A DNA stretch of 21,099 bases from Chrysochromulina tobinii (Eukaryota > Haptophyta > Prymnesiales > Chrysochromulinaceae). Made by a program: the position numbers and the translations under genes. Under the pieces are notes generated by a model that ran no database searches, was not told the DNA's origin, and saw only the letters and a list, made by a program, of their open reading frames with translations. Within the stretch, counting starts at the first letter, position 1, and each line of letters opens with the position of its first letter. Positions 2,614 to 19,206 of this stretch are shown here, in pieces. The stretch is from assembly GCA_001275005.1 (NCBI GenBank), contig JWZX01003088.1, forward strand, positions 1 through 21,099, given 5' to 3'.

Positions 2614-4077
2614 ATGTTCCACGCGGGCAGCGGGCAGCAGCACGATGGCCGAATGCATCGGCGCAATCTGTCGGCGCCGCCGAATTCACCCTCGTCGGTA
2701 CACCAGTTGGAGCTTCCGCCGCAGCACTTGCGCCCGCGCCACTTGATTGCTGAGCAGAGGAGGCACCAGTTGGCCAAGCTGCTCTGCTTCGCACTGTTGG
2801 CACTGCTCGTGACTTGCAGCACGTCTGTGCTCGCGGCCATGTGCGGCGTCGCCGCGGAGCTCTCGCCCTCGTTGAGAGCCGATGACGCCCGCGACGGCGA
2901 GCCTCAGCAGCTGCTGCGTTGGCCCATGGTGCTGCACCAGACGGTGCCCACGCTCAACCTGACCGCGCAGCAGGCCGAGTGGCAGCGCACGTGGACGCGC
3001 CTCGGCGTGAAGGTGCGCCTTGCGGATGACGCGCGCTGCCGCGACGACATCATCGCCCTTGGGCGCGCGACGGGCGAGCGTGCCTTCCTGCGCGCGTACG
3101 ATGCGCTCGAGACAGGCGTGCAGCGCTCCGACATGTGGCGGTACGCGGTGCTCTTCCTGCACGGCGGCGTGTACGCGGACATCGACGTGGTCGCGCGGCC
3201 GGCGATGGCCGCGCTGCTCAGCGCGCCCTCGGCCAACCAGTCGGCCATAGTCTTCGTGGAGTCGCTGCCGTCGCCACGGCTCGTCGGCTGGGCGATCATG
3301 CAGCTCGGCCTCACCGACATGGTGCGCATCCCGCAGTACCGCAACTGCCTGATGGTGAGCCGGCGTGGGCACCCGGCGATGCGCGCGTCGCTCGACACCA
3401 TCGTCGCGCAGGTGCTCAACGGTCCGATGGCTGCGCCAGTGCCCGTGCTCGAGCCTGCACATACGCTCGAGCTCACGGGTCCGGGCGTGTACACCGACGC
3501 CGTGCGCGCGGTACACGAGCAGCGCGCCGGCGGTGACGACAGCGGCAGCCGGAGGAGTGGCGAGAGCGGCGATGGGGAGCGCTGGAGCAGCAACGATCGC
3601 AGCCAAAGCAGCGGTCGCAGGGGCAACGGCACTGAGACCTACGGCGCAGCTGGCCGCGCCGACGATGGCGAGCCTCCAATGCTGTTCGTCTCTCGGCGGG
3701 CGGGCTTCCAGTACTTTGAGCACATCGGGCTCGGCTCATGGAAGACATACCGGGAGGGCGGCCCGGGTGGCAGCAGCCAGCTGTGGGGCAGCCATCTGGG
3801 ACACAGCGGCAGCGGCGGCCTCGTCGGCGGCCTTGGCAGTGGCACTGGCGGAGGGCGCCCACTGGATGAGCACGAGGTGCGGCTGCTACTCCTCGCCTTG
3901 CTCGTGGGTCTCTCGCCAGCGGCGGTCGTGGTGCGCGCGCTCCTCGCTCGCCCCGCTCGGACCGGCCTCTGGCAGTGGCTGATGCACGCGAGGCGCAGCG
4001 GAATGAAGCGCCGCCACGGCTCATGGCCGCAGATGCTGCAAAGGCCTGTGGGCGGTGGGCCCTGTTTGTTTGTGTGA
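2614..4077 (+). CDS. Type II membrane glycosyltransferase, GT32 / Gly_transf_sug (DXD) type
   Basis: This 487-residue protein is predicted to transfer sugar from a nucleotide-sugar donor in the Golgi or ER lumen. A basic cytosolic tail (residues 1-53) precedes one hydrophobic anchor near 54-78. The catalytic region starts with MVLHQTVPT (105-113), the counterpart of the IIHQTW block of OCH1-like enzymes. It continues with RSDMWRY (171-177), FLHGGVYADIDV (181-192, containing the DXD metal/nucleotide motif D189-I-D191), LTGPGVYTDAV (287-297) and a late GLGSW (372-376). A Gly/Ser/Arg-rich insert of about 50 residues (303-353) separates the last two blocks. A Gly-rich stretch follows (381-415), then a second hydrophobic segment near 422-444, which is unusual for this family. 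The start ATG has C at -3; an in-frame ATG at 2653 would keep the anchor. The acceptor substrate cannot be told. Confidence 0.85.
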   Translation: MFHAGSGQQHDGRMHRRNLSAPPNSPSSVHQLELPPQHLRPRHLIAEQRRHQLAKLLCFALLALLVTCSTSVLAAMCGVAAELSPSLRADDARDGEPQQLLRWPMVLHQTVPTLNLTAQQAEWQRTWTRLGVKVRLADDARCRDDIIALGRATGERAFLRAYDALETGVQRSDMWRYAVLFLHGGVYADIDVVARPAMAALLSAPSANQSAIVFVESLPSPRLVGWAIMQLGLTDMVRIPQYRNCLMVSRRGHPAMRASLDTIVAQVLNGPMAAPVPVLEPAHTLELTGPGVYTDAVRAVHEQRAGGDDSGSRRSGESGDGERWSSNDRSQSSGRRGNGTETYGAAGRADDGEPPMLFVSRRAGFQYFEHIGLGSWKTYREGGPGGSSQLWGSHLGHSGSGGLVGGLGSGTGGGRPLDEHEVRLLLLALLVGLSPAAVVVRALLARPARTGLWQWLMHARRSGMKRRHGSWPQMLQRPVGGGPCLFV

Positions 4078-4230: not shown

Positions 4231-6726
4231 ATGTCCGTAAAAGCGCCGGTGCTCAACACGCTCACGAACACGCAGCAGCCGCGGCGCGGCGTCAAGTCGC
4301 CATGCACGCGCTCGCAGACCCGCCGCGCACAGGAGTCCAGTCCTCAGGCGACCACATCAGCTAATGCAGAGCCAGTGGCCCGCTTCGAGGAGCTGCCTGA
4401 TGAGCTGCTGCTGCACATGCTCAGCCTCGCCGCATGCGATGAGACGGTGCCAGGCTATGACGGCGAGTTCCAGTGCCCCACCTTCGTCGCTGGCCGCGAC
4501 GCTCTCGTGCTCGGCCCGACGTCCCGAGCCGCCCGCGCCTGGCAGATAGTGCACAGTGTGAGCCGCCGCTGGAGCTCGCTCGCGAACCAGGTCGAGCCGT
4601 GGCAGCAGCTGCGCAGCATGGACGACTGGTCCAACAATGACCTCAACTGGGCCGTGCTGCGCAAGGAGCCCGACGACCCGGGCCATTTGGTGTGGGCCGC
4701 AAGCTCCACCAGCCGCGAGGAGGGCAAGAAGGACAAGTGGCATTCGGTGCGGGCGCCGGGCGGCGACGTGTGCGTGGTGCTCGTGCGCGAATGCAACGAG
4801 GAGGGCGTCTCGTACGACGTCGTGCGCTGGATGGGCTGCCTGCAGGCGATGCATCACCCGTGCATCGCGTCGCTGAAGCTCGTTCGCGCGTTCAACACGG
4901 GCAAAGAGGGCGAGCACACGGCGGTGCACGCGGGCATGGACTTCGTGGACACGTCGGTGCAGAAGATCGTCTACGGCACGCTCGAGCGCACCTCGCACAC
5001 CGTCATCGGCCGGCCTCTGCCGCCCGTCATGCTGCGCTCCTTCCTGTACCAGCTGCTCTCGGCGCTCGCGTGGTCGCATGCGCGCGGCGTCGCCCATGGC
5101 AACCTCGCGCCGTACCGCGTGCTCGCCAAGACGCTCGACGCTGCCAAGGACCAGTACCTGCTCAAGCTCGGCGATTTTGGCTTCTCGCCGCCACACGCTG
5201 CGCTCTGCAACGAGGAGCTGCCCATTCGGCCGAGCCGCGCGTCGCCCGAGCTCCAAGCTGACAACAAGCACAAGCACTACGGGCCGGCCAACGATCTGTG
5301 GGCGCTCGGCACCGTCTTCGCCGAGATGGCGTGCGGTAACCGCGACCCGCAGGTGTACATGATGATCCAAGACCTCGACATGACGCCCGAAGGCCAGCTC
5401 GAGTCCAGCCTGCATATGCTCTGCGACGACGGGCGCAACCTGCTGCGAAAGATGCTGAAGAAAGAGTGGAAGGAGCGCATCACCGCGGCCGACGCGCTGT
5501 GCCATCCGTACTTCGACGGGCTGCACGATCAGTGCGAGGTGGTCGCGCGCTACCTGCCGCAGTCGATGCCCGCGCCCACGCGCTTCCTCGACCTGCGCGT
5601 GCCCCAGCAGTGGACGCCGGGCCTCGACTTCCTCGCGAAGCAGCCGCACTTGAACGCGCGCATGTGGACCATCCTGTACGACTGGCTCGCGGTGGTGAGC
5701 TTCAAGTTCAAGTTCGTGTCGCGCTCGCTCCAGGTGGCGGGCGACTTCATGATGCGCTACATGAGCCAGGTACAGGTTGAGCGCAAGGAGCTGCAGCTCG
5801 TGGGCATCGGCGCGCTCTGCCTCGCGTGCAAGCACGAGGAGGTGATGATCCCGAACATGAACGACTTCATCTTCATTTGCGACTCGGCGTACACGCTGCC
5901 TCAGCTGATGGTGATGGAGGTGAAGATCCTCACCACGCTGCAACTGCAGCTGCATGTGCCCACCGCGCACGACATGCTGCTGCCTTACCTCGTCGAGCTC
6001 GGCGAGGCGCCCGAGGACCCGTCGCAGGAGCCGTACTCGCCGCTGCGCGCGTGGTGCGAGTGCCTGCTGCTGCTCGGGCAGGCGGCCTACCCGGTCGTAA
6101 TGTACGACCCGGCGGTGCTCGCGCGCTGCGTGGCCACGCTCGGCGGGCTGCTCTCGCGCGGCGTGCACAGCCTGGTGACGCGCCCCGACGGTTCGGTACA
6201 CGAGGGCCACCGCTCGCCGCAGCTGCACGAGCGCGTGTGCTGGCTCAAGCCGGGCGCCGACTGGGAATGCCTGCGCAAGCTGATCGACGCGGTGGAGCAG
6301 GCGGCAAAGGACCAGCGCGAGATGCTAGTCAAGTGCCACCACAAGTTCCTCGATCTGTGCAAGCTCGAGGGGCGTCAGGGCCTGCTTGAAAAGTACCGCA
6401 AGGGCGACCGCAAGCAGACGCACCTGACGCCGCAGGAGGTGCGCCCGCTGCTTGAGGACCACTTGCCGATCGACATGTGCAAGAGCCACGGCGTCTTCCA
6501 GCCTCGGGCGAGCAAGGGCGCCGTCGACGACGAGGGCGCCGCCACCGAGGAGGAGACTGCCGAGACCAAGCCCAAGAAGATGGCCTACCTTCGCGGCGTC
6601 AACCCCAAGGACGGCGCCGACGTGTACTCGATCGTGGGCGTCACCTGCGCACTGGGGAAGCAGCTGCTCAAGGAGCACGACAGGTTCAAGGCGGGCACGG
6701 CGCCCACGTCGCCGGTCGGCGCCTGA
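4231..6726 (+). CDS. F-box / CDK-like pseudokinase / cyclin fusion protein
   Basis: One intronless frame of 831 residues carries three cell-cycle modules. (1) An F-box starts at about 51 (RFEELPDELLLHML) and resumes after an insert at VSRRWSSLA, ending near 115; F-boxes bind Skp1 of SCF ubiquitin ligases. (2) A protein-kinase fold spans about 150-428 with CDK-type landmarks: EGV at 191-193 aligned with the PSTAIRE helix, LYQLLSALAWSHARGVAHG (ending at 290), DFG at 315-317, SPE at 338-340 and DLWALGTVFAEM from 355. Catalytic residues are lost: no glycine loop or beta-3 lysine, Trp200 in place of the helix-C Glu, and HRDLKPxN reads HGNLAPYR (289-296). (3) A cyclin A/B-like core follows, with MWTILYDWL (478-486, the MRAIL patch), LQLVGIGALCLACKHEE and DFIFICDSAYT, then a second cyclin fold at about 575-645. 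The tail is charged (acidic near 765-783). I chose the ATG at 4231 because the in-frame codon at 4180 is TTG. It is probably a regulatory scaffold, as cyclin F also joins F-box and cyclin (inference). Confidence 0.88.
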   Translation: MSVKAPVLNTLTNTQQPRRGVKSPCTRSQTRRAQESSPQATTSANAEPVARFEELPDELLLHMLSLAACDETVPGYDGEFQCPTFVAGRDALVLGPTSRAARAWQIVHSVSRRWSSLANQVEPWQQLRSMDDWSNNDLNWAVLRKEPDDPGHLVWAASSTSREEGKKDKWHSVRAPGGDVCVVLVRECNEEGVSYDVVRWMGCLQAMHHPCIASLKLVRAFNTGKEGEHTAVHAGMDFVDTSVQKIVYGTLERTSHTVIGRPLPPVMLRSFLYQLLSALAWSHARGVAHGNLAPYRVLAKTLDAAKDQYLLKLGDFGFSPPHAALCNEELPIRPSRASPELQADNKHKHYGPANDLWALGTVFAEMACGNRDPQVYMMIQDLDMTPEGQLESSLHMLCDDGRNLLRKMLKKEWKERITAADALCHPYFDGLHDQCEVVARYLPQSMPAPTRFLDLRVPQQWTPGLDFLAKQPHLNARMWTILYDWLAVVSFKFKFVSRSLQVAGDFMMRYMSQVQVERKELQLVGIGALCLACKHEEVMIPNMNDFIFICDSAYTLPQLMVMEVKILTTLQLQLHVPTAHDMLLPYLVELGEAPEDPSQEPYSPLRAWCECLLLLGQAAYPVVMYDPAVLARCVATLGGLLSRGVHSLVTRPDGSVHEGHRSPQLHERVCWLKPGADWECLRKLIDAVEQAAKDQREMLVKCHHKFLDLCKLEGRQGLLEKYRKGDRKQTHLTPQEVRPLLEDHLPIDMCKSHGVFQPRASKGAVDDEGAATEEETAETKPKKMAYLRGVNPKDGADVYSIVGVTCALGKQLLKEHDRFKAGTAPTSPVGA

Positions 6727-7315
6727 GTGGGACGGCAAGGCGGATGAGGAGGTGGAGGCGCCGCAAGGCATGGAGTCTGGCGGCGACAGCGGCGGCGGCG
6801 GCGGCGCAGTATCGGCGACTGGGGGCACACGGCAGCAGCGACTGAGCCTCGATGCTCTCCTCGCGCCGCTACCCAACCGCGCTTGAGTATGACACATAGG
6901 GACGGCGGGCTCGGGTCGGGCACGCGATGTGGGCACGATTGCCAGGCGCGCGGTTTGGCGGCTCGCGGGGCGGCGGGGGAGAGCGCGAGACTGGTCACTG
7001 CACTCTGCACACCGGCGGGCACACTGGGCGAGACAGTGGTTCAGTAAATGATACAGAGAGAGTCTCGCGTGGGCAATAACGGAAGGGCCAGCCGCGCCTG
7101 AGAGCTTGGGGCCCCTAGCCGTTGGCGCGTTACCGCTTACCAGTTCTTGTACCTGAGGTCGAGATGCAATGTGTGTGATCTCCCAACAAGGGGCCTCCAC
7201 AAGCCAACTTCATTACTAACGAAATTCGAATTGACGAAGCTAATAAGTTTTGCATTTGAAGCGGTTCAGACTGTCCTCATGGAAGAGTTTGCGGGCCGCC
7301 CTTGTGAGGCACGCG
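6727..7315. other. Intergenic region, no gene seen
   Basis: These 589 bp contain a GGC-triplet run (about 6781-6806) just after the fusion-gene stop, then GC-rich sequence. From about 7140 to 7260 the DNA is more AT-rich, which could be the promoter of the next gene. An ATG at 7280 opens a short frame that runs past 7316 in another phase, so it could act as an overlapping upstream ORF. I found no tRNA, hairpin terminator or conserved protein segment. Confidence 0.5.
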
Positions 7316-8992
7316 ATGACTCGTCGCAATGGCACGCGATGGCTGGACGATGCAAGCAAGAGTAAGGGGTCGATGGAGCATCTGATGAGGCGTGTGCACA
7401 CTGGTAATACCGGCAGTCCGCTGGATATCAGGCAAGTGGTTACGGCCATCCACCTTCCTGGTGACGTGAGGCCAGATCCGCCGCTGTGTGCGGACCCTCA
7501 GTACCGTGTCCTCGGCCGCGCGAACGTTATGAGGCTAGGCGCGGACGACGAGGCCGCGTTTGAGCACCTCGATAGGCTCCTGCAGCCGATAGAAGAAAAG
7601 GCCGACTTTCGGCCGGCGTCGGCCTCGAGGAGCCAGACTTCCGTGGGCCACGTCAGCCCGCCTGCGGCTGTCAGCGAGGGCGTCGAGCGCCCTCCGTCGG
7701 CCACGGTGCCCGAGGGTGTCAACGAAATTGACGAGTCACACGCCCTCGCTCCCATCGCCGCCGCGGCCACTGCGAGTGGCCCGCCATCGGCAGGCCCGCC
7801 GTCATCGCAGCCTGCGAGCGACCGTCGTCGAAGGCCCCAGCCGCGTGGTTCATCTGCCCCCTATGCGTCGAGCGGTTCGATGGACCGCTTCGCACCACTC
7901 TCGACGCGAGGAGATGCGCCGCAGGCTACCTCGCGCTCAGGCAGCCGGCCGCGCCGGCGCCGGCCGGCCTCGGGCCCTCTCATGCATCGGCAGCTGGCAG
8001 ATCTCTACCTGCCCGACTCCAACCTGCTGCCCGGCGGCATCCCTGCCTACGCGTACCCGGCCTCGGCCGCTGGCTACGCCTCGTGCTCCAGCTTGGCCGG
8101 CTCTTACCCGTGCACGCCCGGCTCGGGCTTCGGCTCGCGACCGTCGACGGCGCCCACTGCGGGCGTCACTGCGCGCTCTGCCGCGCCCAGCAGCCGCGGC
8201 TCCCACCCGGTGACGCCACAGACGCTCCGCTCGCCCGAGAAACTCGTCAACTTTGGCAAGAGCTTCGTCAACCTCGGCAAGAGCTTCGCCGGCGAGACGG
8301 GCACCAAAGCTGGTGACCCCCGAGCGAGCTCGGCTCCGGCGCTGCACCCGTCGCGCAGCGCACTTTTGGCTCGGCCCATGTCCGGCGGCTCCCTGTGGAA
8401 GGAGGACGAGGGCCTTCCTTCACCCATGTACGGTTCTCGGCCTCCAGGAGCCTGGGCCGACGAGCGCCCTCCTGGGCCGCCGCTGCACCGGCTGCCCGCC
8501 TCGGCGCTCGTCTCGTCGACGTCGATTGTCACGAGTCGCACGCGCTCAGCGCAGGTGCAGCGGCGACCGTTTCGTCACACGGCGAGCTCGGGCGCGAGCT
8601 CGCCCGATCCCCTCGGCCTCATCACTCCAGTGCCCGCGCCCATCTTCGACAAGCGGAGCTACGCCCGCGGCCTAGGGCGTGAGGATGTGGCCATCTCGGA
8701 CGCTCGGATGGGGCTCTTTGCCGGCGGGCCTGCCATGCACTCGAGTGTGATGACCAAGAACGCGCTGTCCGCCTCGGAGAGCGTGCGCCGCCTGATCGCC
8801 GGCATGATGCTGGGCCTCCCACCGCCGCTGCAGCAGGGCTCCGTTGCCGTGCGCTCCGCTTCGATGGGTGTGCTTCCGAGGCCCAAAACGCCCCACCCAA
8901 CCGGCGGAGCTACGAAGACTTACCAGGAGGAGGCGAGCAATCAGATGGCGCTCAAGTTCGAGTTCGAGGTTCTGGTTCCGACCCGGGACTAA
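7316..8992 (+). CDS. Unrecognised Pro/Ser/Arg-rich protein
   Basis: This 558-residue frame matches no family I know. The first 90 residues are mixed and could fold (IHLPGDVRPDPPLCADP, then YRVLGRANVMRL and an acidic AFEHLDRLLQP). After that the chain is mostly disordered, rich in Ser, Pro, Ala and Arg. RP-[ASPM]-[ST] motifs recur (RPASAS, RPPSAT, RPASGP, RPSTAP, RPMSGG). A short internal duplication, NFGKSF then NLGKSF, sits near 311-323. A basic cluster near 210-217 (RPRRRRP) could be a nuclear signal. Near the C-terminus, RSYARGLGREDVAISDARM and the final ALKFEFEVLVPTRD look more ordered. Strict GC preference at third codon positions supports coding. I took the ATG at 7316 because the upstream in-frame codon at 7250 is TTG; a 5' intron cannot be excluded. 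It converges on the armadillo gene. Confidence 0.7.
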   Translation: MTRRNGTRWLDDASKSKGSMEHLMRRVHTGNTGSPLDIRQVVTAIHLPGDVRPDPPLCADPQYRVLGRANVMRLGADDEAAFEHLDRLLQPIEEKADFRPASASRSQTSVGHVSPPAAVSEGVERPPSATVPEGVNEIDESHALAPIAAAATASGPPSAGPPSSQPASDRRRRPQPRGSSAPYASSGSMDRFAPLSTRGDAPQATSRSGSRPRRRRPASGPLMHRQLADLYLPDSNLLPGGIPAYAYPASAAGYASCSSLAGSYPCTPGSGFGSRPSTAPTAGVTARSAAPSSRGSHPVTPQTLRSPEKLVNFGKSFVNLGKSFAGETGTKAGDPRASSAPALHPSRSALLARPMSGGSLWKEDEGLPSPMYGSRPPGAWADERPPGPPLHRLPASALVSSTSIVTSRTRSAQVQRRPFRHTASSGASSPDPLGLITPVPAPIFDKRSYARGLGREDVAISDARMGLFAGGPAMHSSVMTKNALSASESVRRLIAGMMLGLPPPLQQGSVAVRSASMGVLPRPKTPHPTGGATKTYQEEASNQMALKFEFEVLVPTRD

Positions 8993-9315: not shown

Positions 9316-12300
9316 TTAGCTTTTGGGCGATTTCTTTCCACCCTTGCCCCCCTTGGGGCTGCCCTTGCCCTTGGGACTCTTCTTCCCCCTCTTGCCGCTG
9401 CCCTTCTCGTCCGCCTGAGCTTCTTGCTCGAAAGCCTGGGCAGCCTTGGCGGCCTGTTGAGATTTATGTTTTGCTAGGGCTTCCGCCACGCCAGGGCCGG
9501 GCATGTCGAAGTCAAGCGGACCGGAGGGCTCGGCGGGTACGATGCCTGCCGGGGCCCTCCTTTTTGTCTCCTGCTTGTATGAATTCTTGACCATGCGCGG
9601 CGACATCAGAAGGTGATCGAACTCTCCAGTCTCCGACTCAAAGCGGGGGTTGCCAGTGGTCGAGTCCCAGCCTCGATGCACTAGGTTCTTCTGCTCCTCG
9701 GGGGCGAGTGTCATGTAATAAGGTTTGATCTCCGCGAACTTGAGGGCCACTGCCTTGGCAATCGAAAGCGCCGCTGGCGCTTCGATGTTGAGCCTCTGCA
9801 AGATGCCCACAGCTTGCGTGCGCAGCCAAGATTCAGGGCCATGCGAGATGGCCGTCAACGGGTCCACGCCGCCTTGTTCGATCAGCTCGTTTCTGGCATC
9901 GGCCTCATTGGCGAGGTTGCACAGAGCGGCGGCGGCGTATCCTTGGGCCTTGGGATTGCTCGTCAGCAGCTCGATGAGCGGTAGCACCGCGCCGGCTTTG
10001 ACGACCGCCTTTTGGTACGACGGTTCTGACGAGATGCCCCACAAAGCGCACGAGGCATGCTTCTGCGCAATGGCGCTGCCAGTCTTCAGCAGAGTCACGA
10101 GGTGGTCGATGCCGCCACTGCTGACGATGGATGACTTGACTGGCCCTGCTTTCTCCCTGGCCAAGTCCGACAGGAGAGCTGAAATAGCGTCCTGTGTATC
10201 TTGATGCTCGGTCCTTTTAAGCAGTTTGACGAGGAGAGGGATGCCCCCCGCCTCGATGATGACCCCCTTGCTGGAATTGAGGGCTGTGAGATGCCAAAGC
10301 GCGCATGCAGCGTGGTTCGCCACTGCGATATGCGTGTGAGGGAGGAGCTTCACCAGCAAGGGGATACCATCGTGATCAGCAATCAGCTGTTGGGCACTAT
10401 TGCTCGCCGAGAGCTGCCACACCGCCGCTGATGCCTTGGCTTGCGCCTCAACGCTGGAAGAGGTGAGCATAATCACCAGCGGCTCGATGCCACCCGCGTT
10501 GACGATCGCCTGCTTATTCTCGCTCACTCGGGCCAGGTCGCCGAGAGCCGCTGCTGCTCGCACTTGCGATTCGTTGGCGTTGCGACCGTCACCGAGAAGC
10601 CTCACAAGAGAGGGAATGGCGCCTGCCGCCGCGATAGTGTTGCGGTTCTCTAGGGAGCTGGCTGCAAGCTTTGCAAGAGATTCGGCAGCCTTCATCTGAG
10701 CCGTGGCATTGCGTACCTCCAGCAGACTAACAAGAGGGTTGACAACGCTGGTACGGTTGTCCTGGTTTGGTTCGGAGATGTTGATCAGCGCTGCCTGCGC
10801 GTACAGCTGTGTCTGGGCGTCTTCGCTCCCAAGGAGCACCACGAGAGCAGGGATTGCGCCTACGCGTGCCAGAGCAAGCTGGTTCTCCATGCAATCTTTA
10901 GAGAGCGATTGCAACGCGGCGGCGGCGCACATCTTCGTTCGATCGGACTCTGAGTTCAGGAGTGCCACGAGAGGAGGCAGGCTGCCTTCGGCCGCGATGC
11001 TCAGCTGATTTTCGCGCTGCTGGTGCGAGAGGTGCCACAAGGCGCGTGTGGCATTTTCATGCGGTCCTTTTCCTTCAGGCCCGTTTTCCTTCTTTAGGAG
11101 CGCGACAAGCGGCGGGATGCCACCCTCCTCGGCAACGACGATCTGATTGGTGAGATTGCCTTCGGCGATCGACGCAATCGCAGCAGCCGCCCACTTCTGC
11201 GACTCAACATTGTCCTTGATCATCATCTCGATCAGTGGCCGAATTGCACCAGCCTCGAAGATGGTTGATTGCGTGTCTAAATTGAGACGCCCAAGATCGG
11301 CCAGCGTGCGCGCGGCGACCGCCGGATGCCCAAGAGACGGGTCACTGAGCCATCCGACGAGCGACGAGATCGCGCCTGCATTAGCGATAGAAAATTGAGT
11401 TTGTGCGTGCGAGGCCTCCGACCTGCGCGTAAGCTGCGCGAGAGCCGTGGCTGCATGCTTCTTGGCATTCATCGAGCCATGCTGCAGCAACTTGACGAGC
11501 GGCACAACGCCGCCCGTCGAAATTATGGCTTCCTTATTCATCGTGCGTACCTCGTCATTGACGGCAACTAGGTCGTCAGAGGTCGACCCGGAGAGAACCG
11601 CAGCCGCGTGCTCTTTCGCCACCTCGCTGAGGTTACCTTTATTGAGAAGGGCAACGATGGGTTTCGCGCTGCCAGCCGTCGCAATCGACTTCTTAGAGGC
11701 CAAGTCGTTCGACTGCCAGAGGAGCCAGAGAGCGTACTCCTGCGCCTCGAGGGTGCCATCCTTAAGCAGCGCAACGAAGCGATCGATACCACCGGCCATC
11801 TGAACGGTCATGCGGTTATCGGAGCCACCTTCTGCCGCCATGTCCTTCAGAGCGTTCCATGCGCGCTGACGCACCTCTGCCTCCGATGCGCCGAGAAGCG
11901 CAATGAGCTGGGCAGTCACCTGGACACGGTGCTGCGGCGACTTGAGCGCGATCTGAGACATTGCAAGCGCAGCATTCAGCTGGGCTGAGGTCGTGCCGGC
12001 GCGAAGCTGTTTGGCGAGTTGATTAATTGCTCCCCACTTTGAGAGGGCAGCACGATTCTCATGGTCAAGAGACAGGTTGTAGATCAGCTGTGTCGCATGC
12101 GTTTGCGCTTCGGATGATGCGGTCTCGCTGCTCAGCAGACCAACCACGCAATTCGCAACGGTCGACTGATTCTCCGGGTTCTTGACGACCAACACCGACA
12201 GTGCGCCAGCGGCCTGTACCTTAGCATCGGCAGTTCCTACTTCAAAGAGGGCAACAAGTGCTGGAACTCCACCTGCTTCAGCGATGAGCCTGCGATTGTC

Positions 12301-15300
12301 TGGCAGAGCCGCTAAGGTGTGTAGCGCTCCAGCCGCCGTCTCTTGAGCTCCAGGACTACCTTCGGTAAGCAGCGAGACAAGTGGGTTGATGCCATCGCTC
12401 TGCGCGATCAACTCCTGATTGGTGGGCGACGCACCAAGTGCCCAGAGCGCACCAGCAGCATCCCGATGCACTCCTACCAGTGTTGAGGACGCCAATGCTA
12501 TGAGAGATGGGAGGCCTCCATATTCTGCAATCGCGGCCTGGTTGTCCTCGTTGTCCATGGACATTGCCCACAATGCCGAAGCGACGTCCTGTTGGAGGGC
12601 GACGTAAATCTGGATGGAAGCTTTGTCCTTCTTCTCGATGTACGTCTTCTCCTCGCTTTCATCCCAAAGTCCTGTACGTCTGTCGCCGTACGTGTACAGA
12701 TCTTTGGCGACCATTTCCACAAGCGGTTTGATGCCACCCACATCAGCAATGGCGGTCTGGTTCGAGCGGTGCGCTCGGGCGAGGCGCGAAATGGCACGAG
12801 CAGCCTTGGTGCACGTTTGCATGGCATCAGAACTCAGCAGACCAACGAGCATGGTAGAGATTTCGTTCTGGTTCGACGGATTGTCGAGTCCAATGGCAGC
12901 AAGAGCCCCAGCGGCCTCGTGCTGTGTCTCGGTATTGCCCATTCCGAGAAGAGCCACGAGCGGTGCAAGACCACCCGCCTTCGCGATGTTCGTTTGATTC
13001 TTCGGATGATTGGATGTCAAGGACCATAGCGCACTTGCGGCGCACTTTTTGGTCTTCTCGGGGCTGTTACCTTGCAGCAGCGTAACAAGGAGTTTGATGC
13101 CACCAGCCTCGGCGATCGCCGTCTGGTTGGCAGGATGGTTGCGCCCGAGCTCAGAAAGCGAGATCGCCGCATGTGCTGGCACAGTGTCATCGGACACCAC
13201 TTCTGGCACCACCTCCTCCTCCTCCTTCTTTTCTTTCTTCTTCTTGTCTTTCTTCGGAGTCTTGCCAAGCTCTTCCTTCTTCTCTTCCTTCTTGACTAGC
13301 TCGACTGGCTTGAGCATATCGACAAGCGGAGTGATGCCTTGCGCTTTCGCAATCGAATCCTGAATCTCTTTGGAGCCAACTGCCAAGCTTCCGAGGGCAT
13401 CTGCACCGTTTTTTTGAGCATCTGGGCTTTGCTCGCGCAGAAGTTTGACAAGCGGTCCGATAGCATTCATCTCGTAAATCTTGGTCGTCGTCTCCTTGTT
13501 GTTCATTGATATGGAGTAGAGAGCCCTCGCGGCTTCCAAGCGCCCATCGAGGGTGCCTCCAGTCGCCACCTCTTCCACGGGCTGAAGCAAGTTGACCAGA
13601 AATTCGAGGGCACCCTCCTTCGCGACGGTGTTCTGGATCTCCTTTGACGAGCGCGCCATGTAGGACAATGCACACGCAGCGCGTGCCTGTGCGGCGCCAC
13701 TCTGGCAGGCTAGAAGACTGACGAGAGGCTTGATGCCACCAAATTGGTTCACCTGCTTCACGTTATTCTCGGAATCACCCGCCAGAATCGCGATCACTGA
13801 GGCTGCGAGTTCTTGGGCCTTGAGGCTGGTGTCGCCGCTACCACGAACCTGCATGACAAGGCGCTCGATGGCGCCTGCCTCCACGATGGCCGTGATGTTG
13901 TCCGAATGCGAAGCAAACTTAATGAGCATCTGAGTGACCTGCTCTTGAGCCTCTGCCGTGCCCGTGCCCAGGAGGCCAACTAGACCCGTGGCAATGGCAA
14001 GCTGATTGGCAGGGTTATTGTGAGCAAGGCAGGTGAGTGCGTTCACAGCCTCTTCCTTTGCTTCGATCGTGCCGGTGCCTAGCAGCGCAACCAATGGTGA
14101 GATGCCCCCAGCGTTCACAATGCGCACTGGCGCACCCGGATTATTGGCTGCAAGTTGCCATAGCACATGAGCCGAACGGCGCTGAGCCCCTGGATTTTGA
14201 CTGTTCAGGAGACCGACCAGCTTCTTGGCGATCTGCGCCTGGTTGTCTGGGTTGTCGAGGGCGAGGCGTGCCAAGCAAGCGATGGCGTGCTCATGGGCCT
14301 GCTGAGTGCCATCATCCAGCAGCTGCACGATCGGGGGAATGCCGCCTGTTTTGGCAATGGCCACTTGGTTGACTGCATCGACAGAAAGATGCCATAGGGC
14401 TGAAGCCGCGCGCTCCTTACCCATCTCGTTGCCATTGGTGACGAGGCCAACGAGTGGGATCACGCCTCCAGCCGCTGCGATTGCACTCAGCCGATCGCCG
14501 TCGTCAACTTCAGATTCAGGTGGAGCAGGAGCCGCGTCGTTTTGAACCGAGTCGCCGGGTTCTCGGACAATGAAGGATTCATCCGAATTGCGTCGGGCCA
14601 TGAAGGATTCTTCTCCTGAAGTCAGATTCAAATCATCGAGAGAAGGCGCTCTGGCAGCACGTAGTAGAGCTTTCGCTTTCTGTTTCTCTGCCATGACCCT
14701 CTCACGCTCTGCAATGGCACCCTTGGCAAGATCGGAGATGACGGCAGCGGCAAGCTCTTGAGCTCGAGCACTTCCGACCTTAGAAAGCGCCACAAGCTCC
14801 GTGATCGCGCCGCAGTCGACGATATATCCTTGGTTGTCGGTCGCTGCGCACAAGTGCCAGATACAACGAGACGAGTTTTCTTGCGAGATTTGCGAACCCG
14901 TGCGGATTGCAGAGAGCAGCGGTGGTACGCCCTTTTCATTGATGATCGCATCCTGCATGTCTGAATCTCCGTAGGCCAGGTCCGACAGCGTCGCTGCTGC
15001 TTGTTCCTGCACACCAATCATCTGCTCCAGGTTTTTGTTTGTCTTCTCGTCTGCAGCTGCTATGCTCGCTGCTCCTGCCTTCCCCTTCGTTGTGTGTACC
15101 TCTTTTTCCTTAACTCCCTCCTCCTCGGGGCTGGAACCGATGACCTTCGAGACGAGCTCCCAGATCTTCTTTGCGGTGACAGCTCCACTCAGCGAAACTG
15201 ACTGGAGCATCTGAATCAGCCGTTTGATGCCGCCCACTTGCTGAATCTCCCGTCGTCGAGCTCGGCCGCCTTCATCCTCCTTCCAGCCGTCAGCAGCACG

Positions 15301-18300
15301 GTCAGCAAGGGTTTCGGCGCTGCCACCGTCATCAGGCGTGACGTAGCTATCACGGGCGAGGTTGCCAAGCGCGCGAGCGGCAGCCTCTGGCGTGCCGACG
15401 ACATTAGACGTGAGCAGGGCACCAAGGCACTGGATGCCTCCCGCATCGGCGACGAGAGGGCGATTCTTTGGCTCCATTGCAACCTCGCAAATTGCCAACA
15501 CGGCTTGCTGCTGGGCCAAGGGCGATCCCTGCCTGAGCAAGCTCACGAGCGGAACGATGCCGCCGACGTTCGCAACGATCAGCGACGCATTCGCACAGGT
15601 TTTGAGAATGCGGGATATGGCGATTGCAGCGAGCTCCTGTGCGTGCACGTCGGACGATGAGAGCATGCTGCAGAGTGGTGGGATGCCTCCAGACGACGCG
15701 ATCAAAGCGCTGCTATCCGGGTTGCCTGCTATGTGCCAAAGCGTACGCACCGCAGCCGCCTGCGTAGACAAGCTTCCGCTCGTAAGCAGATCAATGAGCG
15801 GCGGGATGCCGTGCGAGCGAACAATCAGGCTCTGCAGTGGGTCGTTGCCTGTCGCCATGGACAGCAGCGCTTGTGCAGCCTCGCACTGAGCCTTCGCGTC
15901 GACGGGCCCCTTGGTGCCTTCGAAGCTGCCCGAAAGCCACGTGATCACGGCTGGCACGCCACCCGCCTTGGCGATGGCAACCTGATTCGCTGAGCTGGAA
16001 AGGCACAGCTTAGACACAGATGATAGAATCCGTACGGCTCCATTTTGTGTCTGAACCGTAGCGATCCGCGAACCCAGGCGCCCAATGATCAACTTTGCGA
16101 TGTTTTCTCGATTTTCCGCGTGCTTGGAGCACAACGAGCAAAGTGCGCCGACCGACATCTCCCAGGAGTTATCGGAGCCTCCACCCACGAGCAAGATGAC
16201 GAGCGGCTCGATGCCGCCCAGCTTGGCGATAGTGGCCTTGTTGCCACTGTTTTCGTAGCTGAGCGCCCACAGAGCTGCAGCAGACTGCTCTTTGACTTCG
16301 GCTGTCCCTTCGCGTACCAGGGCAGTGAGAGGAGTTATCGCACCCGTTCGAGCGATTGCGGCCTGGTTCTCAGGGCTGTTGAGCGACAGTTGCGCTATTG
16401 CACCCGCAGCTTCGGACTGCAGCTCCACACTGGACGAGCCTAGCATTAGAACAAGAGGCTGTACGGCACCGGCTTCCGCGAGCGCGAGCGCGATCTCTTT
16501 GTTTCCCTCTGACAGCTGCGAGACCGCGTTCGCAGCTAGCGCGCACAGGGTTGCCGCCTGCATCATCTCCTTGACGTTCGCTGAACACGATAGGAGCACA
16601 TTGGCTATTAGCGGAACGCCTCCCGCCTTTTGGATCGCCGTCTGAATATCTTTCGACTTGTACGCCAGCTTGGCGATGGCTTTGACGGAGTTCTCCTTGG
16701 CCTTTGACGATGGGCTTTCTAACAGCGCCAGCAGCGGCTCGATTCCACCGGCATCCACAATCGAGTTACGGTTCTCGGCAGAGTCGGAGGCGAGGTTCGC
16801 CAGGGCAGCTGCGGCTTGCTCTTGACGGTTGTCGGCTTTATCCACGCTCTTGACCTTCAACATTCCCACAAGCTTCTCGATGATGATCACACGATTTGCG
16901 GCCTCGATAGACAGACGCACGAGCGCTGCCTCAGCGTGCCGACGAGCTTGCAAGTTCTTACTGCCCAGCATCATCACGAGTGGGCCGATGCCGCCTGCCT
17001 CGGTGATGGATGTCCGGTTTCCGTCGTCATCTGCCAGTGCAAAGAGCGCTCCAGCAGACTCTTCCTGAGCTGCATCGCCACTGAGCCCTTCTAAAAGGGT
17101 GACGAGCGAGGGGATGGCTCCAGCCTTTGCGATGGTACGCGCGTTCACCTTGGCGAACGGATCCTTGTCTCCGATTGCAGTGGCCAGGCGCGCGAGAGCG
17201 GCAGCGGCAAACTTCTGGGTCATCGGGTCAGTGCTGTTGAGCAGCATGACGAGCGGTTCGATGCCGTCGCCATCGACAATCGAATCTCGGTTCTTGGCCA
17301 CACATGCTAATTGAGCCAGGGCCGCCGCTGCGTGCTCTTTCGCCGTGATTGCTTGCTCTTTGACGATGCTGGGGATTGTTAAGCTCACAAATGGCTCGTC
17401 GCCATGTGTTGACTTGATGATGGCAATCAATGGCTTGATGCCTCCCTTAGCAGCGATCGCCTCCTGTGCCTTGGTGTTGCGAAGCGCGAGCCGGGCCAGA
17501 GCAGCTGCCGCCTGCTGACGTGTGATTGATTTCGTCGACGAGAGGCAACTGACGAGGGGGTCGACGCCCTCGTCTTCGAGTACCGTTTTCTGATTTCCCT
17601 CGGTGATGCATAGACTGAGTGACCACAGCGCATATGCATGGGCCTCTTCGGTACCGTTCTTGAGCAACGAAATGAGGTCAGAGGTTGGACCTGACCTGGC
17701 CACCACGGCTTGGTCGGTCGGGTTCTCGTGCACGAGACGCCAGAGCGAAGCAGCTGCATTCAACTTGGCCTTGGGCGTGCCCGCTCCGAGCATGGCCACG
17801 AGCAGGCCCGTGATCTGCTCCTGGTTCTTGGTATTCTTAAAGCCAAGGGATGCGAGAGCATTTGCAGCATGATTCTCAGCTCGCTCGTAGCCGCTTGCCA
17901 GCAAGGCCACCGTGGGGGGAATGCCACGCGCTTCCTCGACTGCGAGCTTGTTGCTCTCGTGTTCGTGCGATATGACCCAAATCGCTCCTGCAGCCTCGGC
18001 CTTGACCGCGTTTGCGGCTTGCGTTGCCGTGACGCCAGAGCGTGGAGATGACGTCATCTTGGCGTCTTTGCTGGTTTTCATCAGCTCGACCAATAAAGCG
18101 ATCGAGCCCAAGGTTGCCGCCGCTGTCTGGTTCGCGTTATTGTCGCGGCAGAGCTCCGTGATGGCAAGCGCTGCGTACTCTTGGACCTCCAGTGGGCAGG
18201 TGTGGTCGAGGAGGTCGACGAGCGGCTTCATGGCATTGGTAGATGCAATTTTGTCCTGGTTTTCGCGGTTGTAGCGCGCAAGATGCGCCAGGATGCCGGC

Positions 18301-19206
18301 CGCCTGGGCCTGGGCCTGGGGGCTCTTGCTCGTGAGCATCTGCAGAGGAGGCAGAATGCCGCCCGCCATCACAATCTGGTTCTGGATATCCAGGTTGCCG
18401 CGTGCGAGATTGGCGAGAGCTGCGGCAGCATGGACCTGTCCTTGAACGTTCATGCCATTAAGCAGTGCAAGCAGCAGTGGAATTCCGCCTTCTTTTGAGA
18501 TGCTTTCCTGAAGGAGCGTATTGGCTGGCGTGATGTCCGGCGGATACGCGCTGATCAAGTTGCCTGGGCTCATGAGCTTTCCGAGCGCATTTGCGGCCGC
18601 GACCTGAGCCTTGCCATTCTTAAGCAATTCAAGAAGTAACGGGACGGCTCCCGCTGCGTGCAGGGCGTTCTGGGCTTCAAGGTATGACGACGAGAGATTG
18701 GAGATTGCATCGGAAGCGTAGACCTGTGCATCCGCGGCGACGTCAGCTTTGACCAGGCGGACCAAGGACGGCACAACACCCGCCTTGAGCATCTCTCTTT
18801 TCTGGTCTGTCTCAGTAGAGATAGATGCGACCGCGGCAGCAGCGTAGACTTGCGCCTTCTGGCTGCCGCCGCTCAGCAACTTGACCAGAGGAGCGACTGC
18901 GCCCGATTCCACCGTCTGATGGAGCAAGTCTGCATTCGTTGCGGCGATTGTGGCGATCGTGGAGGCCGCATGGATCTGACCGCCGTCGGTGCCCACCCTG
19001 ACGACTTCGATCAGGTGAACAAGGCCACCCCCTTTTGCGATCGCCACCGCGCATTCCGTATCCTTGCTGGCAAGGACGTCGAGGAGATGAGCGCACTCCT
19101 CCTTTTTCTCATTCGGCGAATTCTTCAGCTCTTTGATGATGCTAGGGATGTCTGCGACGGTCTTTTCCGCCGCCAGCTTCTTGATTCGGCCTTCGCCGAC
19201 CCCCAT
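9316..19206 (-). CDS. Giant armadillo-repeat protein (3296 residues)
   Basis: A single uninterrupted frame encodes about 67 armadillo units (my count by eye), each about 41 residues. The pattern is NQxxIAxAGGIxPLVxLL, a short turn, then an Ala-rich AAAALxxLA helix, as in beta-catenin, Vac8 and plant ARM proteins. The expected fold is a very long right-handed superhelix that binds extended partners. Non-repeat linkers interrupt it near residues 1289-1319 (charged), 1356-1383, 1500-1572 (SFMARRNSDESFIVREP and acidic), 1965-2010 (KKEEKKEELGKTPKKDKKKK then Glu-rich) and 2172-2205. After the last repeat (about 3140) comes a unique segment containing AEIKPYYMTLAPEEQKNLVH and RGWDSTTGNPRFESETGEF. 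The chain ends in a Lys/Gly/Ser tail (about 3262-3296) with repeated SPK motifs. No signal peptide or membrane segment is visible. The ATG at 19206 has G at -3 and G at +4. The gene is less GC-rich than its neighbours. Its function is unknown. Confidence 0.92.
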   Translation of the reverse strand: MGVGEGRIKKLAAEKTVADIPSIIKELKNSPNEKKEECAHLLDVLASKDTECAVAIAKGGGLVHLIEVVRVGTDGGQIHAASTIATIAATNADLLHQTVESGAVAPLVKLLSGGSQKAQVYAAAAVASISTETDQKREMLKAGVVPSLVRLVKADVAADAQVYASDAISNLSSSYLEAQNALHAAGAVPLLLELLKNGKAQVAAANALGKLMSPGNLISAYPPDITPANTLLQESISKEGGIPLLLALLNGMNVQGQVHAAAALANLARGNLDIQNQIVMAGGILPPLQMLTSKSPQAQAQAAGILAHLARYNRENQDKIASTNAMKPLVDLLDHTCPLEVQEYAALAITELCRDNNANQTAAATLGSIALLVELMKTSKDAKMTSSPRSGVTATQAANAVKAEAAGAIWVISHEHESNKLAVEEARGIPPTVALLASGYERAENHAANALASLGFKNTKNQEQITGLLVAMLGAGTPKAKLNAAASLWRLVHENPTDQAVVARSGPTSDLISLLKNGTEEAHAYALWSLSLCITEGNQKTVLEDEGVDPLVSCLSSTKSITRQQAAAALARLALRNTKAQEAIAAKGGIKPLIAIIKSTHGDEPFVSLTIPSIVKEQAITAKEHAAAALAQLACVAKNRDSIVDGDGIEPLVMLLNSTDPMTQKFAAAALARLATAIGDKDPFAKVNARTIAKAGAIPSLVTLLEGLSGDAAQEESAGALFALADDDGNRTSITEAGGIGPLVMMLGSKNLQARRHAEAALVRLSIEAANRVIIIEKLVGMLKVKSVDKADNRQEQAAAALANLASDSAENRNSIVDAGGIEPLLALLESPSSKAKENSVKAIAKLAYKSKDIQTAIQKAGGVPLIANVLLSCSANVKEMMQAATLCALAANAVSQLSEGNKEIALALAEAGAVQPLVLMLGSSSVELQSEAAGAIAQLSLNSPENQAAIARTGAITPLTALVREGTAEVKEQSAAALWALSYENSGNKATIAKLGGIEPLVILLVGGGSDNSWEMSVGALCSLCSKHAENRENIAKLIIGRLGSRIATVQTQNGAVRILSSVSKLCLSSSANQVAIAKAGGVPAVITWLSGSFEGTKGPVDAKAQCEAAQALLSMATGNDPLQSLIVRSHGIPPLIDLLTSGSLSTQAAAVRTLWHIAGNPDSSALIASSGGIPPLCSMLSSSDVHAQELAAIAISRILKTCANASLIVANVGGIVPLVSLLRQGSPLAQQQAVLAICEVAMEPKNRPLVADAGGIQCLGALLTSNVVGTPEAAARALGNLARDSYVTPDDGGSAETLADRAADGWKEDEGGRARRREIQQVGGIKRLIQMLQSVSLSGAVTAKKIWELVSKVIGSSPEEEGVKEKEVHTTKGKAGAASIAAADEKTNKNLEQMIGVQEQAAATLSDLAYGDSDMQDAIINEKGVPPLLSAIRTGSQISQENSSRCIWHLCAATDNQGYIVDCGAITELVALSKVGSARAQELAAAVISDLAKGAIAERERVMAEKQKAKALLRAARAPSLDDLNLTSGEESFMARRNSDESFIVREPGDSVQNDAAPAPPESEVDDGDRLSAIAAAGGVIPLVGLVTNGNEMGKERAASALWHLSVDAVNQVAIAKTGGIPPIVQLLDDGTQQAHEHAIACLARLALDNPDNQAQIAKKLVGLLNSQNPGAQRRSAHVLWQLAANNPGAPVRIVNAGGISPLVALLGTGTIEAKEEAVNALTCLAHNNPANQLAIATGLVGLLGTGTAEAQEQVTQMLIKFASHSDNITAIVEAGAIERLVMQVRGSGDTSLKAQELAASVIAILAGDSENNVKQVNQFGGIKPLVSLLACQSGAAQARAACALSYMARSSKEIQNTVAKEGALEFLVNLLQPVEEVATGGTLDGRLEAARALYSISMNNKETTTKIYEMNAIGPLVKLLREQSPDAQKNGADALGSLAVGSKEIQDSIAKAQGITPLVDMLKPVELVKKEEKKEELGKTPKKDKKKKEKKEEEEVVPEVVSDDTVPAHAAISLSELGRNHPANQTAIAEAGGIKLLVTLLQGNSPEKTKKCAASALWSLTSNHPKNQTNIAKAGGLAPLVALLGMGNTETQHEAAGALAAIGLDNPSNQNEISTMLVGLLSSDAMQTCTKAARAISRLARAHRSNQTAIADVGGIKPLVEMVAKDLYTYGDRRTGLWDESEEKTYIEKKDKASIQIYVALQQDVASALWAMSMDNEDNQAAIAEYGGLPSLIALASSTLVGVHRDAAGALWALGASPTNQELIAQSDGINPLVSLLTEGSPGAQETAAGALHTLAALPDNRRLIAEAGGVPALVALFEVGTADAKVQAAGALSVLVVKNPENQSTVANCVVGLLSSETASSEAQTHATQLIYNLSLDHENRAALSKWGAINQLAKQLRAGTTSAQLNAALAMSQIALKSPQHRVQVTAQLIALLGASEAEVRQRAWNALKDMAAEGGSDNRMTVQMAGGIDRFVALLKDGTLEAQEYALWLLWQSNDLASKKSIATAGSAKPIVALLNKGNLSEVAKEHAAAVLSGSTSDDLVAVNDEVRTMNKEAIISTGGVVPLVKLLQHGSMNAKKHAATALAQLTRRSEASHAQTQFSIANAGAISSLVGWLSDPSLGHPAVAARTLADLGRLNLDTQSTIFEAGAIRPLIEMMIKDNVESQKWAAAAIASIAEGNLTNQIVVAEEGGIPPLVALLKKENGPEGKGPHENATRALWHLSHQQRENQLSIAAEGSLPPLVALLNSESDRTKMCAAAALQSLSKDCMENQLALARVGAIPALVVLLGSEDAQTQLYAQAALINISEPNQDNRTSVVNPLVSLLEVRNATAQMKAAESLAKLAASSLENRNTIAAAGAIPSLVRLLGDGRNANESQVRAAAALGDLARVSENKQAIVNAGGIEPLVIMLTSSSVEAQAKASAAVWQLSASNSAQQLIADHDGIPLLVKLLPHTHIAVANHAACALWHLTALNSSKGVIIEAGGIPLLVKLLKRTEHQDTQDAISALLSDLAREKAGPVKSSIVSSGGIDHLVTLLKTGSAIAQKHASCALWGISSEPSYQKAVVKAGAVLPLIELLTSNPKAQGYAAAALCNLANEADARNELIEQGGVDPLTAISHGPESWLRTQAVGILQRLNIEAPAALSIAKAVALKFAEIKPYYMTLAPEEQKNLVHRGWDSTTGNPRFESETGEFDHLLMSPRMVKNSYKQETKRRAPAGIVPAEPSGPLDFDMPGPGVAEALAKHKSQQAAKAAQAFEQEAQADEKGSGKRGKKSPKGKGSPKGGKGGKKSPKS

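Follow-up and report, generated by a model that had tools for sequence, protein, structure and literature searches.

A haptophyte protein family that joins an F-box, a CDK-like pseudokinase and a cyclin: a candidate single-chain substrate receptor of an SCF-type ubiquitin ligase

In a 21,099-nucleotide stretch of the Chrysochromulina tobinii genome (assembly GCA_001275005.1, contig JWZX01003088.1, positions 1 to 21,099 of the forward strand; hereafter the window), one gene encodes an F-box, a domain derived from a cyclin-dependent kinase (CDK) and a cyclin, in that order, on a single polypeptide. A first, sequence-only reading of the window had proposed this order of modules, a CDK-derived kinase and a role as a ubiquitin-ligase substrate receptor. 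The order is borne out by an 831-residue frame, and the receptor idea is supported as the best reading; that the CDK-type fold has lost its catalytic residues had gone unmentioned. We put at about 0.5 the probability that the protein serves haptophytes as a substrate receptor of a Skp1-cullin-F-box (SCF) type ubiquitin ligase, its receiving surface being a built-in pseudo-CDK/cyclin dimer. The gene, an uninterrupted frame from ATG to stop, and its modules lie in the window as follows:

4231..6726, forward strand: F-box/pseudo-CDK/cyclin fusion, whole gene, 831 amino acids, without intron
4384..4623, forward strand: split F-box, residues 52-131 (profile matches, model helices, structure comparison of an F-box model)
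4642..5541, forward strand: CDK-like pseudokinase, residues 138-437
5614..5952, forward strand: first cyclin fold, A-type like, residues 462-574 (Cyclin_N, 2.2e-27)

A search of 5.8 billion proteins returned 41 matches at E ≤ 0.001, comprising 38 whole-protein relatives (P0002-P0039, 42-99% identical to the window protein) and three ordinary kinases; the window protein (P0001) and these relatives form the 39 aligned rows counted below. By a motif test all three modules are present in 28 of the 39 rows, with the kinase C-lobe in 39 and the cyclin in 38, and the rows short of three modules are mostly cut or divergent N-terminally. A profile from 16 of the 39 rows recovered eight further, shorter pieces (P0043-P0050), and a search with the most divergent family member recovered no additional fusion. 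In each of three protein searches, scoring was confined to some 8,000 candidates with the most words in common; within these, only the fusion family and ordinary cyclins and kinases came up, with no oomycete or ciliate fusion named among the matches, which does not imply absence elsewhere. In the organism's own genome (53.15 Mb, 2253 contigs) the window gene is the sole full-length match among 36 reported, the remainder being confined to the cyclin or kinase portions.

We propose that the N-terminal F-box would bind Skp1, and hence cullin, as its fold suggests, and that the A-type-like cyclin at the C-terminus is most likely the partner of the pseudo-CDK, in cis. The outcome would be a CDK-cyclin-shaped platform, permanently assembled and catalytically silent, that could recruit the usual CDK-cyclin binders by way of the hydrophobic patch of the cyclin and probably also the surface of the pseudo-CDK; candidate clients are substrates with RxL-like motifs, CDK inhibitors and Cks, which would then be ubiquitinated. 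Visible in the sequences themselves are the co-occurrence and order of the modules, the catalytic loss, and the fact that the positions facing the dimer partner and most of the docking patch are kept.

The cyclin bears on this proposal through the following features, all on the forward strand:

5662..5685, forward strand: MRAIL-equivalent patch MWTILYDW, residues 478-485 (M, L and W in 38/38 rows, I in 37/38)
5830..5832, forward strand: K534, equivalent of cyclin A K266 (38/38 rows)
5917..5919, forward strand: E563, equivalent of cyclin A E295 (37/38 rows)
5965..6360, forward strand: helical region, about residues 579-710, read as a second cyclin fold of degenerate sequence (model helices)

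A cyclin profile built from six of the 39 rows ranks cyclin A2 first (1.1e-31), followed by B1 (6.3e-24), E1 (5.5e-20), cyclin F (3.8e-18) and D1 (5.3e-17). Cyclin F (FBXO1) carries an N-terminal F-box, a C-terminal cyclin and a hydrophobic patch in one SCF receptor and has no kinase domain between F-box and cyclin. The parallel with cyclin F that had been drawn at the outset holds for the pairing of F-box with cyclin and for the patch, but the cyclin box is not closest to cyclin F among solved cyclins, and only the haptophyte protein has the intervening kinase domain; because A2, B1 and E1 outrank cyclin F in the profile, the protein is unlikely to be an ortholog of cyclin F that carries an insert. 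As for the two-fold cyclin of the sequence-only reading, the first fold is strongly matched, whereas Cyclin_C finds no Pfam match in the window protein and mean pairwise identity is 0.48 in the second fold versus 0.71 in the first (27 rows). Compared as a whole with three chains taken as cyclin A by length, the model gives TMt 0.69-0.73 at a root-mean-square deviation of 5.9-6.7 Å; since the region is helical and the model matches cyclin A chains, yet the sequence is degenerate, a second cyclin fold is likely, not proved.

The hydrophobic patch positions M478, I481, L482, W485 and Q522 are each kept in 37 or 38 of 38 rows. Both contact residues of a CDK-binding cyclin are present in K534 and E563, whose cyclin A equivalents we take to be CDK contacts, and an EE(I/V) stretch is retained as well. 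These residues would also suit a cyclin that engages an active CDK in trans, making the protein either an F-box adaptor that brings a CDK-cyclin or a CDK to the ligase or an alternative cyclin with its abundance controlled by auto-ubiquitination, and the genome does hold further cyclins (13 Cyclin_N matches, being the window's own and 12 others). We think pairing in trans unlikely, given that a partner bearing a conserved PSTAIRE-like helix sits on the same chain, at high local concentration, and that this helix and the cyclin face are conserved together across the rows.

That in-chain partner combines a preserved cyclin-facing helix with a dismantled active site:

4786..4788, forward strand: R186 at the position of the beta3 Lys (CDK2 K33), Arg in 36 of the 37 rows with a letter
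4801..4845, forward strand: PSTAIRE-equivalent alphaC helix EGVSYDVVRWMGCLQ, residues 191-205 (row alignment)
5095..5103, forward strand: HGN replacing HRD, residues 289-291, catalytic Asp to Asn in 39/39 rows
5173..5181, forward strand: DFG motif, kept, residues 315-317 (D and F in 39/39 rows, G in 38/39)

On the cyclin-facing side of the alphaC helix, E42 is Glu in 36 of 37 rows, I49 is Val in 37/37 and R50 is Arg in 37/37. The catalytic E51 of the same helix is Trp in 37/37 rows, the catalytic-loop Asn is Arg in 39/39, and no glycine loop is recognisable in the alignment as judged by eye; with the beta3 Lys and the HRD Asp also replaced, DFG alone is kept of the residues of an active CDK. 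Judged by these positions, the domain is a pseudokinase whose catalytic residues are lost nearly family-wide. Its CDK descent, as first proposed, is upheld: the EGVPSTAIRE region aligns gap-free with CDKs, and with a profile from seven rows CDK1 and CDK2, with many variants of a single protein among them, fill the first 52 places in the best 60 of 1195 matched sequences; ULK3 is the first non-CDK among those 60, at 80.4 versus 87.1 bits. A single-sequence search did not separate CDK2 (55.4 bits), a GSK-like kinase (55.2) and ULK3 (54.8); by profile and helix register the domain is CDK1/2-like. The whole-model VIA structure list was filled by the kinase domain and carries no inference on the cyclin, the F-box or unlisted families.

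Erased catalytic residues together with retained dimer surfaces would also fit a decoy: by sequestering CDK inhibitors or Cks it would raise CDK activity, while its F-box would control the protein's own turnover or degrade the bound inhibitor. Phytophthora fusions share the Asp to Asn change with no F-box mentioned in the main text of their description (PMC3019232). F-box motifs are nonetheless kept in 28 of the 39 rows, needless for a pure decoy, and no search for CDK inhibitors was made in the genome, and we rate the decoy improbable. In favour of a kinase that works by unusual chemistry, as atypical kinases do, with its own cyclin as the activator, there is the DFG Asp, retained in every row, but the four replacements just described and the missing glycine loop make such activity very improbable. 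Despite the fragmentation of the genome, a gene-model or assembly artefact that joined neighbouring genes can be dismissed, since the frame is single and unbroken and the like architecture recurs across the relatives, including the two that carry an organism name.

Both of these (of 38) are haptophytes with all three modules: P0006, whose MMETSP identifier (presumably that of a transcriptome project) and taxid 156173 assign it to Haptolina brevifila, and P0019, from a Prymnesium parvum contig of 1,438,636 bases. Prymnesium parvum belongs to the Prymnesiales. By taxonomy look-up Haptolina is classified there too. A pattern scan of IMG/VR yielded 16 stretches matching the pattern, none confirmed as a relative, and 50,697 phage records held no relative; neither result excludes a viral origin.

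The F-box is unusual in being split. Helix 1 (LPDELLLHML, residues 57-68) is separated from the later helices (99-108, 112-118 and 122-130, with VSRRWSSLA..PW) by about 30 residues (69-98; window 4435-4524) that have conserved residues of their own (consensus VPG......P.F..G.DA.VLG). F-box-like is matched at E ≤ 10 in 28 of the 39 rows, and the curated F-box cut-off is passed by P0030 and P0031, two of the ten relatives scanned singly, so that the profile signature is present at family level only. The three-helix fold is present in a separate F-box model, which matches F-box/SCF structures; five of six Skp2 entries align with it across 41-48 residues at 35-37% identity. A Foldseek search with the F-box model alone gave no match at E ≤ 0.001.

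Several points weigh against a substrate receptor built in this way. Taken alone, the window protein gives a weak F-box match (Pfam E 0.2, under the cut-off), and the genome-wide F-box search missed it under every threshold used. Two family searches of the assembly did not turn up Skp1 (PF01466, PF03931), a result limited by introns, gaps and a silent control. Where cyclin A has E220, which we take to be the acidic residue that pairs with the RxL Arg, 37 of 38 rows have Val; the patch had been thought able to preserve substrate docking, and its hydrophobic residues are indeed kept, but this Val probably alters docking specificity. The CDK2-cyclin A-like docking in cis is a proposal, and the receptor role as a whole draws on sequence and fold, with binding and activity as predictions. 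Finally, it has been suggested for the Phytophthora fusions that their cyclin part may regulate protein stability (PMC3019232). The genome further has three strong cullin loci, one CKS match and at least 37 F-box-like matches.

A second F-box-cyclin fusion lies on another contig of the same genome (C1977, L030 1074-5222, reverse strand), where a 1382-residue frame holds F-box-like (1.2e-6, over the cut-off), LRR_6 (5e-22), Cyclin_N (1.9e-28) and Cyclin_C (7.2e-5). As predicted from these matches, it is a Skp2-like layout joined to a cyclin, with leucine-rich repeats (LRRs) between F-box and cyclin. A 26-row cyclin tree, built from ten of the 39 fusion rows, 11 cyclins of the same genome with C497 left out, and 5 of the 22 cyclins P0051-P0072, sets it apart from the branch (99/100) to which all ten pseudo-CDK fusion rows belong. 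This tree is unstable, with 11 of 23 inner branches open and several long branches, and the fusion rows do not form one clade, two long rows from the same genome (C283 and C1149) falling among them. If the placement is right, cyclins would have been joined to F-box receptors twice. The broader idea, that haptophytes fused a dead CDK and a cyclin to an F-box so that CDK clients would be destroyed and not phosphorylated, with the F-box-LRR-cyclin protein as an independent second instance, we hold tentatively, at somewhat short of an even chance.

The sequence-only reading knew of no described protein of this architecture, which proves too broad for the kinase-cyclin half. Four Phytophthora infestans CDKs, PITG_21617 among them, have C-terminal Cyclin_N and Cyclin_C domains, were confirmed by reverse-transcription PCR and are all possibly inactive because Asn replaces Asp in subdomain VIb; related genes with the like change are reported from other oomycetes, two ciliates and Theileria annulata, while none was found in two diatoms and two further apicomplexans (PMC3019232, 2010). 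The likeness to the haptophyte family is a CDK-like kinase followed by a C-terminal cyclin on one chain with the HRD Asp replaced by Asn, and this half is an already known kind. The differences, from a comparison by description only, are that Cyclin_C is detected in Phytophthora and not in the haptophyte protein, that the term F-box is absent from the main text of that paper, and that haptophytes are not among its listed holders (PMC3019232). In open-access PubMed Central (PMC) full text, outside which most subscription papers lie, we found no protein described as carrying all three modules. The F-box attached to a kinase-cyclin pair looks new; also added by the present analysis are the occurrence of the family in haptophytes, the catalytic losses beyond the HRD Asp, and the F-box-LRR-cyclin fusion.

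Functionally, the closest comparison is with the human SKP1-SKP2-CKS1-CDK2-cyclin A-p27 complex, in which an F-box protein, a CDK and an A-type cyclin meet in one assembly (PMC10318019). There the components are separate chains, the CDK has its catalytic residues and Skp2 brings LRRs, whereas the haptophyte fusion is one chain with a pseudo-CDK and no LRRs found; by analogy, it would correspond, on a single chain, to the Skp1-Skp2-Cks1-CDK2-cyclin A assembly. Single-chain cyclin-CDK fusions have reportedly been engineered in fission yeast; they likewise put cyclin and CDK on one chain, but are engineered, active and without an F-box.

The remaining parts of the protein are its two ends:

4231..4374, forward strand: N-terminal tail, residues 1-48, predicted to be disordered (pLDDT below 50)
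6361..6723, forward strand: C-terminal extension peculiar to the family, its last helix predicted at residues 801-820 (model)

The tail holds two conserved tracts, LxxLTN, which in our view resembles a destruction box without its Arg, and KSPCTRSQxRR (KSPCTR at 4294-4311), which we take to resemble a CDK site or nuclear signal. A KSPCTR-like tract occurs in at least 19 of the 39 rows by pattern count, a lower bound, as P0003 (KRSPCTR) was missed by the pattern and several rows are cut. Residues 711-831 have a mean pairwise identity of 0.32 (27 rows compared). An antisense frame of 623 residues opposite the gene is most simply a by-product of high G+C content, because Pfam matches and protein relatives sit on the sense frame. 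Neighbouring frames encode a DXD-motif glycosyltransferase (2614-4077, forward; Gly_transf_sug 1.1e-9) and a short-chain dehydrogenase (1129-2403, reverse; adh_short 1.1e-26), neither with an evident connection to the fusion gene. Farther along are a 580-residue frame with no Pfam match at E ≤ 0.5 (7250-8992, forward) and an intron-free frame of 3296 residues with Armadillo repeats (9316-19206, reverse; Arm 1.1e-217).

If the proposed receptor role is true, the family would be a natural case in which one recognition surface has come to serve a different outcome, with CDK-cyclin clients ubiquitinated instead of phosphorylated. Because the catalytic residues are lost family-wide while the cyclin-facing helix is retained, the scaffold idea is directly testable, and the F-box may offer a functional clue to the oomycete and ciliate pseudo-CDK-cyclin fusions of 2010, themselves unexplained (PMC3019232).
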